Shown here: one piece after another, positions 4,585 through 41,609 of the stretch
Layout: each line of letters starts with the position of its first letter
Numbering within the stretch: the first letter of the stretch is position 1
Source: Pseudanabaena sp. FACHB-2040
GTDB lineage: Bacteria; Cyanobacteriota; Cyanobacteriia; Phormidesmidales; Phormidesmidaceae
Length of the DNA stretch: 64,000 nucleotides
Direction: 5' to 3'
Assembly (NCBI RefSeq): GCF_014696715.1
Contig: NZ_JACJQO010000018.1
Location: 1 to 64,000 of the forward strand
The notes under the pieces: model-generated
The model's input: the letters and a program-made list of their open reading frames with translations, nothing else
Database searches by the model: none
Told to the model about the DNA's origin: nothing
Position numbers and translations under genes: made by a program

Positions 4585-5742
4585 ATGGCATCCTCGTCAC
4601 GCTCCTTTCAAAGCCAAACTATCAACCGTTTATTGGGAACCTATCACGGCTGGGCTCAAAGGGCCGAACGGGTTGTGAGGCGGCTGCAGGTAGGGGCTGC
4701 TTGGGCCTTGCAGGTCACGCTATACCCGGTTTATGTTGGGTTTCAGGCGGGGCGGCTGATTTATCGAAAAATTGCAGCGGCTGATCCGGTGGGTCAGCTG
4801 AGCCGTCTGCGGCAGCGCCAGCCTGCGCTCCATCGCGCTTGGATTGAGCCCAATCAAAGTGATGGGCCGATCAAGATCCTACTGGGATGGCTGCAGCAGC
4901 CGAGTAGCCCGCTCTTTGAAGGGTATCTGCCGCCTGCTCCGCTCAAAGGCTTGGTGCTGGCGGCTGGGCAGGCGCTTGATCTCTCGTCGTCAAGGCTGGC
5001 TAAAGTCTCCCAGCGCACCCGAATTCAAGGCATCGCAACGCAGCTTGAAGATCGCTCCCTAGTGCTGGTGGCCGCCGGGAACCAACTGTTGAATCTGCTG
5101 TCTATAGAAGAACAGGCTGCTTTGAGCCGAGCTATTGCCTGGCTCCTGGCAGAGCAGGGACACTACCATTGGCGACAGCAACAGCGATTGCAGGCTGGCA
5201 GACTACCTCTGCCTTCTCTCAATCGGCGATCTTGGTGGCCGGTTCAGCTATTTCACCATCTGATGCGGTGGATGATGATGGGGCCGGTGGCGACGATGAC
5301 TGACCTGTTTGGAGAAGCGGAAATGGTTCAACATCAAAGAGCCCTTCGCTTACTCCAGAGCCAGAATCAGGCGCGATCGCACATTCAACCCCTAGTCATG
5401 ACCGAAACCGCTTTCGTGGAGACAGTGCCGTTACTGCCAGCAGCCGACCCGGTGTTAACCCTACCGGCTATGGGCAGGCAAGGTGCGCTGGAGTTGAAGC
5501 AAGGTTCGTCAATCGTCAGCTCTGAGGGCAATCCTGATGGAGAAGTGACGGTAGTGTCTGATCGCCTGATTACGACTGCTTCCGAAACCCATCCGATCTG
5601 GATCGAGGCTAAGGCCGTCGTGGTTGACTATGTTGACCACCCGCTGGTATACCTGCTGCGGTGGATCGACAAAGGGCTGCTCTGGTTAGAAAGTTCGGCC
5701 GGGCAGGTATGGAGTTGGTTGCGATCGCACTTTACCCTCTAG
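4585..5742 (+). CDS. Conserved cyanobacterial protein of unknown function
   Basis: 385 residues that I do not recognise as a named family. The N-terminal 70 residues contain a hydrophobic, possibly membrane-associating stretch (AAWALQVTLYPVYVGFQAG, about 37-55). The middle is rich in Gln, Arg and Leu, and a second hydrophobic patch (WMMMGPVATMTDLFG) lies near residue 235. The C-terminal 25 residues are Trp/Leu-rich. AGGG lies 5 bases before the ATG at 4585. It is divergent from the mannosidase gene (43-base gap) and followed by psbI. Base composition and an internal GCGATCGC site are like those of its neighbours, so there is no sign of recent transfer. Confidence 0.7.
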   Translation: MASSSRSFQSQTINRLLGTYHGWAQRAERVVRRLQVGAAWALQVTLYPVYVGFQAGRLIYRKIAAADPVGQLSRLRQRQPALHRAWIEPNQSDGPIKILLGWLQQPSSPLFEGYLPPAPLKGLVLAAGQALDLSSSRLAKVSQRTRIQGIATQLEDRSLVLVAAGNQLLNLLSIEEQAALSRAIAWLLAEQGHYHWRQQQRLQAGRLPLPSLNRRSWWPVQLFHHLMRWMMMGPVATMTDLFGEAEMVQHQRALRLLQSQNQARSHIQPLVMTETAFVETVPLLPAADPVLTLPAMGRQGALELKQGSSIVSSEGNPDGEVTVVSDRLITTASETHPIWIEAKAVVVDYVDHPLVYLLRWIDKGLLWLESSAGQVWSWLRSHFTL

Positions 5743-40682: not shown

Positions 40683-41183
40683 CTAGCTGGCCAACAAATT
40701 GAGCTGCCGGGGGTAAGCCGGTTTAGTTGGACGGGCGGGGGTTTCTTCCTCAGCCTGTCGCTGCTCTTCTTTAAGGTAAGTTCGCAAGGAATCAAAGCCT
40801 AGGTAGTTCAATACGGCGTACCCATGTTTGCAGCAGCCTCGCCCAAAGGCTTGCCTCTGCCAGTAGTAATCTTCACAATCGCACTCAAGGCGATCGCGTA
40901 GACAAGAGACCTGGTGGCGAGACTGAGACTCAGGGTTTGTCACTGTGAACTGCCCTGGGTCGCGCAGCCAGTCGGTGACTTGGAGCTGAGCCGCCTCAGC
41001 CTGACGGTGTTGAACGAAGTGCGACTTCATTTGAGCTTTGGAAATGAAAGTAGGGCGCTGTCCCTTTACAGCAACCCAAATGACTTTGAAAAATTCTCGT
41101 AGCTGTACTGGGGTTGATGGACTCAGCCCCAGCATCCGCCGAACTGCGGCGGCTGAGTAGAGCATGGTCGAGCGAGTAGCCAT
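40683..41183 (-). CDS. SWIM zinc-finger protein
   Basis: 166 residues. The C-terminal half contains a SWIM-type motif: CDCEDYYWQRQAFGRGCCKH, i.e. C-x-C-x(n)-C-x-H, which can bind zinc and nucleic acid or protein. The N-terminal half has RRMLGLSPSTPVQLREFFKV and a basic stretch. No nuclease or helicase domain is present in this chain. It is divergent from a small RHH-like gene, and the 160-base gap between them is filled with repeats that look like operators. The protein may be a DNA-binding regulator, but this is inference. Confidence 0.72.
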   Translation of the reverse strand: MATRSTMLYSAAAVRRMLGLSPSTPVQLREFFKVIWVAVKGQRPTFISKAQMKSHFVQHRQAEAAQLQVTDWLRDPGQFTVTNPESQSRHQVSCLRDRLECDCEDYYWQRQAFGRGCCKHGYAVLNYLGFDSLRTYLKEEQRQAEEETPARPTKPAYPRQLNLLAS

Positions 41184-41210
41184 CGGTAATTAAAACTCTG
41201 TATATCTATT

Positions 41211-41293
41211 ATGCCGCGTTACACGGAAGATTTCCCGTGTAACGCCGTTCGGCTTACCGCCATTTAGGGGCTTGCGGATGCCGCGTTACACGG
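41211..41293. promoter_or_regulatory. Operator-like repeat array between divergent genes
   Basis: A perfect 16-bp direct repeat, ATGCCGCGTTACACGG, occurs at 41211-41226 and 41278-41293. An inverted arm, CCGTGTAACGCCG, lies at 41235-41247, so the first and second copies form a near-perfect palindrome (GTTACACGG...CCGTGTAAC). The array sits between the SWIM gene start (41183) and the RHH-like gene start (41352), a position typical of an autoregulatory operator. Confidence 0.55.
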
Positions 41294-41351
41294 TTTTGGT
41301 GATACACTCTTTTGCTAAAGTACGGATAGCACGACTGGGTGAGTGAGGGGT

Positions 41352-41609
41352 ATGAAACAGGACAGATTTGAACCTAGCATCGAGGCCCATTCTGAACTCA
41401 GGCTGAACCAGCCGCGCGGAGAAGCAGGGCGATTTGCCAGTATGTACCAGGAGAAGCGGGGCGATGCGATCGCACTTCGCCTCCCCGTCAGCCTAGACCA
41501 AGCCCTGCGTCAAGCCGTCGGCTGGCAGTCCAAAGCCGACAACGCCACACTCAAAGCCTGGATCGAAGACGCGATTGCTGCGAAGCTGAAGGAAGAGGGT
41601 GAAGGGTAG
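41352..41609 (+). CDS. Small RHH-like DNA-binding protein
   Basis: 85 residues from ATG 41352; GTG 41343 would add three. The N-terminal 40 residues are polar (RGEAGRFASMYQEKRG). Then DAIALRLPVSLDQALRQAVG gives a strand and helix, and LKAWIEDAIAAKLKEEGEG a second helix. This is the ribbon-helix-helix/CopG plan seen in antitoxins and small repressors. No toxin partner is recognisable immediately downstream. Its most likely target is the repeat array at 41211-41293. Confidence 0.6.
   Translation: MKQDRFEPSIEAHSELRLNQPRGEAGRFASMYQEKRGDAIALRLPVSLDQALRQAVGWQSKADNATLKAWIEDAIAAKLKEEGEG

Follow-up and report, generated by a model that had tools for sequence, protein, structure and literature searches.

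Our results show that a 13-bp operator-like site, present three times between a small gene and a divergent SWIM-type zinc-finger gene, associates with the small gene and not with the SWIM gene. Phages and plasmids carry near-identical words ahead of their small-gene relatives, so the array looks like a phage control switch retained by the chromosome. The locus is probably a phage-type divergon preserved in a cyanobacterial chromosome, in which a ribbon-helix-helix (RHH)-like protein would bind the three sites and repress both genes. The pair lies in the window, which is the whole stretch of 64,000 nucleotides that was analyzed (G000:C18:1-64000, from a genome of 6,283,586 bases in 44 contigs). 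A limited literature search found no description of such a system, in keeping with the original prediction, which had called it undescribed.

A repeat array confined to the space between two divergent genes

The SWIM-type zinc-finger gene occupies positions 40683-41183 on the minus strand (an ORF of 166 amino acids). The RHH-like small gene runs on the plus strand from an ATG at 41352 to 41609 and encodes 85 amino acids, or 88 if a GTG at 41343 is the start. Between the two divergent ORFs lie 168 bp, for which a perfect 16-bp direct repeat at 41211 and 41278 and an intervening inverted arm had been described. Both copies of the repeat (41211-41226 and 41278-41293, plus strand) proved exact. 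The inverted arm (CCGTGTAACG, 41235-41244) is exact as well and pairs with 41217-41226 to form a perfect 10-bp inverted repeat, the sole pair of its kind (gap of 4-12) genome-wide.

Dispersal of the 16-mer through the genome would have refuted the original prediction, and it was not seen. With up to two mismatches the 16-mer occurred at two places in the 6,283,586-base genome, both of them here (reversed control, 2). All three genomic copies of the 10-mer CGTTACACGG, at 41217 (plus), 41235 (minus), and 41284 (plus), fall within 77 bp of the intergenic region, compared with 14 genome occurrences of the same word read backwards. When one mismatch was allowed, the 13-mer CCGCGTTACACGG was found at four genome places, three at this locus (reversed control, 8). 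The near-confinement of the 10-mer and 13-mer to the intergenic region therefore indicates that the word belongs to this locus, as expected of the operator-like array of the compact module originally proposed, and confirmed that the repeat observation is real and above chance. The only other near-match to the 13-mer in the genome, with one mismatch, is at G000:C21:63848-63860.

The array repeats a pseudo-palindrome of 13 bp, CCGCGTWACACGG; CCGCGTTACACGG is laid out as CCGCGT-T-ACACGG. Site 1 (CCGCGTTACACGG, 41214-41226, plus strand) and site 2 (CGGCGTTACACGG on the minus strand, 41235-41247) together make the inverted repeat 41217-41244, and site 3 (CCGCGTTACACGG, 41281-41293, plus strand) precedes the small gene, at a distance of 67 bp from site 1. 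The left end of site 1 abuts a CATAAT on the minus strand (41208-41213), noticed by eye, which could be the -10-like hexamer of the SWIM gene. A consensus promoter scan returned no sigma-70-like site where one was expected and did not report CATAAT. The inverted pair of sites 1 and 2 is kept in two related genomes, G001 (locus L004) and G005 (locus L005). In the latter it reads GTTACAGGG/CCCTGTAAC, CAC having become CAG in both arms together. Site 3 is kept in G001 and absent from G005.

Identity of the two encoded proteins

The genes had been described as a divergent SWIM zinc-finger and RHH-like pair. The divergence and the SWIM ligands stood; the window SWIM protein scored 12.8 bits against the Pfam SWIM model, under the cut-off of 19.6, and no Pfam RHH model matched the small protein at E≤1. 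Across the SWIM family, 11 of the 12 members matched the Pfam model at E≤1, with a best value of 4.6e-5, and the CxC..CxH ligands (C101, C103, C118, and H120) were invariant in all 12 alignment rows. In a larger set of 22 rows, from which L072 and L078 were left out, one copy (L077:4372-4776) is missing the second ligand pair, an apparent truncation or frameshift.

The AlphaFold2 model of the SWIM protein had a mean pLDDT of 88. Foldseek searches with this model turned up no match at E≤0.001 among PDB or viral structures, and the viral list included some SWIM-named proteins (Faunusvirus and Bacillus phage SP-15) at E values of 0.014-0.15. A second structure comparison yielded Z scores of at most 3.6, which the tool's own note places in the chance range. 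The C-terminal half superposed on ZSWIM8 (Z 3.6, rmsd 2.7, 57 residues, 25% identity), a Z that may be chance, and residues 4-66 matched PURA/Pur-alpha/Whirly at Z≤3.6, which again may be chance. Sequence searches of solved structures returned nothing at E<0.1 and matched no solved SWIM protein.

Alignments of the small-protein family revealed a conserved N-terminal QPR..G.FAS...RG stretch, followed by IALRLP and two predicted helices. Pfam and NCBIfam gave nothing useful for the small protein; the best Pfam RHH match in the family was to RHH_6 (E 0.19, one of seven members), which is not above chance. The AlphaFold2 monomer, built from 3 sequences, showed helices only, at low confidence (pLDDT 65.6). 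When a profile of nine relatives was compared with 13 RHH_1 proteins from related genomes, the two aligned in register (prob 81.5, score 29.4), and none of 200 column shuffles scored as high (≤13.4). A ribbon-helix-helix-like identity is thus plausible from the profile comparison, but neither Pfam nor the structure model bore out the fold.

Distribution of the pair among cyanobacterial genomes

Among 59 relatives, 12 encode a match to the SWIM protein, and a search of the 388 genomes of the class with its profile detected 48. The small protein matched in 3 of 59 relatives and in 3 of the 63 genomes of the window's order; its profile detected 6 of 388 genomes when built from three rows and 9 of 388 when built from seven, three of these nine being weak. 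Weak matches in G070 and G079 were set aside because they overlap unrelated ORFs.

The pair recurred beyond the window, so the other refuting outcome, a pair not conserved together, did not arise either. In all three order genomes with the small gene (G000, G001, and G005), it adjoins the SWIM gene divergently, with the sites between them. These loci represent two different chromosomal neighborhoods, one shared by G000 and G001 and another in G005. SWIM copies without the small gene occur in G022 and G032, with a 63% identical SWIM protein and no word. Overall, 9 of 12 SWIM-bearing loci are without the word, and the SWIM genes lacking the small gene lack it. Conversely, the viral contig L180 carries a relative of the small gene with no SWIM gene nearby.

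By eye, the G032 SWIM gene, whose small gene is lost, retains GCGGCATGCTAGAGATAG before its start (L007:1440-1500). This word is close to GCGGCATACTAGAAATAG of G005 and is apparently a promoter remnant minus the operator.

The site tracks the small gene outside the genus

Small-gene relatives in more distant genomes and on plasmids carry versions of the site upstream. Two CCGCGTAACACGG copies precede the relative in G212 and on a matching Leptolyngbya boryana plasmid; CCGTGATACGCGG precedes that of G096, CCGCGTAACAACGG that of G113, and CCGCGTAACTCGG that of an Oscillatoria acuminata plasmid, and in G287 GTTACACGG lies a few bases before the start of the gene. The O. acuminata relative is annotated from an internal start at 5067, within a longer frame that begins at 4986 (L088:4986-5228).

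We scored each locus by the fewest mismatches to the window 13-mer within 250 bp upstream, against 1000 dinucleotide shuffles per locus. The best site had one mismatch in G005 (0 of 1000 shuffles at least as good) and G212 (1 of 1000), two in G096 (2 of 1000) and O. acuminata (8 of 1000), three in G113 (70 of 1000), and four in G287 (522 of 1000), and by these counts the G113 and G287 loci taken alone are not significant. Summed over the six loci, the mismatches came to 13, and none of 2000 permuted motifs reached so low a sum (mean 28.1, minimum 20). Sites without an adjacent SWIM gene were found in G212 and its L. boryana counterpart, in G113 and G096, on the O. acuminata plasmid, and on the viral contig L159.

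The small protein has a further weak relative in G379 (locus L096), upstream of which no site was detected within four mismatches. Two GGGGACA[CT]GG words lie upstream of this gene (L096:1462-1632), perhaps a drifted operator.

Viral, prophage, and plasmid relatives

Profile scans of viral contigs with small-protein alignments, run prior to the motif-first test, found none, and a phage collection gave no match for either window protein. In the motif-first test, a DNA scan of the viral contig collection with ATNCCGCGTWACACGG returned 26 contigs, among which one (L159) encodes a small-protein relative (E 1e-20) and none a SWIM gene. The L159 gene starts at 1275, about 45 bp downstream of the motif, and is preceded by sites at 1155 (identical to the window 13-mer), 1219 (one base off), and 1256 (GTTGTTACACGG). 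L159 was also the sole viral contig matched by a two-site pattern with sites 36-66 apart; whether direct or inverted as in the window, more closely spaced pairs of sites matched no viral contig.

A protein search added a second viral contig, L181 (89% identical protein), whose sites are degenerate only, with four mismatches. An ORF for a GIY-YIG-type homing endonuclease lies just upstream of its small-gene relative (L181:9478-9975), in the position taken in the related contig L180 by the divergent gene and two strong sites. In L159 and L180, and for these only, the repressor-like gene was seen to head a phage early operon, with operator-like sites between. The phage nature of L180 and L181 rests on their source collection and on genes in common with the G287 locus, which has a large terminase gene and in which the SWIM gene and the small-gene relative are about 3 kb apart; that locus and L180/L181 have five protein families in common, the small gene included.

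Plasmid records matching the two window proteins numbered one and three. With relatives on plasmids, in a prophage-type terminase locus, and on viral contigs, the suggestion of a mobile-element regulator gained ground.

Neighbors of the SWIM gene and other RHH-like genes beside it

The recurrent neighbors at 31 SWIM loci with flanks, a count from which L078 was left out, were a small Cys-containing protein (12 loci), a SLOG/DprA-like protein (7), and DUF932 (4). A Sak4-like gene was present at six loci and one for a Rad52-like annealing protein at six others, or 12 of 31 without overlap. At another 12 of the 31 loci, the flanks covered contained no gene of the five recurrent mobile-type classes. 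As L049 and L086 are apparently one Synechococcus PCC 6312 locus, the 31 loci amount to about 30 independent ones. A large terminase gene lies close to the SWIM gene at two further loci (G287 and G212), and no Sak4-like or Rad52-like gene is near the window copy. One published paper mentions SWIM-associated SWI2/SNF2 ATPases in mobile systems (PMC5512222). Since the SWIM family occurs largely in phage-like or plasmid gene sets, with single-strand-annealing genes as frequent neighbors, our guess from the neighborhood is that the SWIM protein is a recombination accessory protein.

By eye, the SWIM gene also lies near another divergent short RHH-like gene in G147/PCC 6312, G100, G287, G212, and G006, and in most of these the intervening DNA has repeats or palindromes of its own. 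Where the SWIM gene faces this other RHH-like gene on a PCC 6312 plasmid and in G100, there are three palindromic TATAACGGG-type copies (L049:1926-2137, L086:5791-6000, and L051:1253-1500). L086 and L051 have a second related copy of that other RHH-like gene. At prophage-type loci with terminase genes, the palindromes CGTGTATACACG (twice, near form; L085:5109-5244) and GCGTATAC (twice; L081:5772-6107) sit between the other RHH-like gene and SWIM. Because different RHH-like genes and repeats accompany it, the divergent pairing of SWIM with an RHH-like gene seems to be a recurrent one in which the regulator varies.

Evolution and selection

An unrooted tree of 26 SWIM proteins was built, with L077 left out. 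It placed the window copy in one clade (support 99/95) with those of G001, G005, Oscillatoria CS-180, and Leptolyngbya SIOISBB; the G287 copy is its next neighbor and joins weakly (84/69). The five copies lie beside chromosomal genes (PGM/PMM, ABC permease, amine-oxidase-type, SLH, DUF815, and ResB or RskA-type), with an IS110-type transposase gene also near the SIOISBB copy. The CS-180 and SIOISBB loci are without the small gene and without the word, and the repressor and operator are retained in three of the five.

Between G000 and G001, dN was 0.036 and dS 1.03 for the SWIM gene (dN/dS about 0.035), 0.126 and 0.715 for the small gene (about 0.18), and 0.044 and 0.82 for the neighboring phosphomutase gene (about 0.05). 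The window copy is under purifying selection. The sequence after the phosphomutase gene differs among relatives (30 loci), and an empty insertion site therefore could not be delimited.

Discussion

The phage origin of the module and the dimerization, binding, and repression ascribed to the small protein are inferred from sequence. The small plus-strand gene would encode a dimeric, RHH-like DNA-binding protein that recognizes the 13-bp pseudo-palindrome at the three window sites. Occupancy of site 1, which abuts the -10-like hexamer, would repress the divergent SWIM gene, and binding at site 3 would amount to autorepression of the small gene. The SWIM protein, for its part, would descend from a family whose members belong largely to phage-like or plasmid gene sets.

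SWIM fingers are capable of DNA binding, and the pair of sites nearest a gene lies at the SWIM start, both of which would suit a model in which the array is regulated by the SWIM protein instead of the small one. That model is improbable given that small-gene relatives carry the site with no SWIM gene adjacent on two plasmids, in two further genomes, and in a viral contig, whereas the site is missing from SWIM genes that have no small-gene partner. The same association bears on the nature of the array. Repeated and inverted words also mark attachment sites, transposon ends, and replication iterons, and this site does travel with mobile elements; yet it is always upstream of the same small gene and not at element ends, and its direct and inverted copies, together with the co-changed arms in G005, fit a dimer site. 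We accordingly give little credence to an attachment, transposon-end, or iteron site, or an RNA hairpin, in place of an operator. Still less probable is a toxin-antitoxin pair of RHH-like antitoxin and SWIM toxin, which the original prediction had entertained while seeing no toxin motif. RHH antitoxins do autoregulate through palindromic operators, but type II pairs are co-transcribed and obligate, and here the genes are divergent and each partner occurs alone, SWIM genes persisting partnerless in G022 and G032 and a small-gene relative in L180. PADLOC, searched for toxin-antitoxin and defense systems with four proteins, had no match at E≤1, and Pfam showed no toxin family.

Purifying selection and chromosomal neighbors would be natural for an ordinary host gene pair whose phage copies were captured from hosts, and an unrooted tree does not prove the direction of transfer. 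Against such a history, the chromosomal copies make up just one small clade among others of phage and plasmid type, and few host genomes have the small gene (6 of 388 and 3 of 63); we regard a host origin as unlikely.

A phage-type divergon retained by the chromosome thus remains our preferred reading. If it holds, the locus is a case of a control switch and one gene retained in a chromosome under selection, and an operator and its likely regulator are defined, from sequence alone, for little-known cyanobacterial phages and plasmids. The SWIM family, with its Sak4-like and Rad52-like neighbors, may point the way to bacterial proteins equivalent to the SWIM recombination factors of eukaryotes. 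Operator specificity might have been kept, one 13-bp site being identical in the window and in L159, and on this ground the small protein might act as a captured immunity repressor that silences the early operon when a related phage enters. The repressor brought in by a phage, or lost repression, would then switch on the SWIM gene, whose product would interfere with or borrow the phage annealing machinery. This proposal is speculative and on balance rather unlikely; if true, it would describe a one-repressor, one-effector anti-phage device built of phage parts.

Comparison with known systems

The small protein resembles RHH regulators (the MetJ/Arc/CopG superfamily; Pfam PF01402, RHH_1) in the strand-helix-helix register given by the profile comparison, its short length, and the palindromic sites beside its own gene. 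It differs from them in the absence of a Pfam RHH match above chance and in its own N-terminal stretch, and whereas the RHH fold is a beta-alpha-alpha unit that dimerizes through its strand, the window model is an all-helical, low-confidence monomer. With Shu2/SWS1 of the Shu complex, the window SWIM family shares the CxC..CxH ligands, and its RecA-fold Sak4-like or Rad52-like neighbors recall the RAD51-paralogue partner of SWS1. A Shu2/SWS1-type mediator works with a RAD51/RecA-fold partner, whereas for the window family the likeness is one of neighborhood only.

In phage divergons such as P22 immI with Mnt and Arc, a small autorepressor lies between divergent early operons. L159 and L180 share this plan, in that a small repressor-like gene and a gene set of early type point away from each other, with several operator-like sites between them. 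The window differs in having one target gene left, among chromosomal neighbors.
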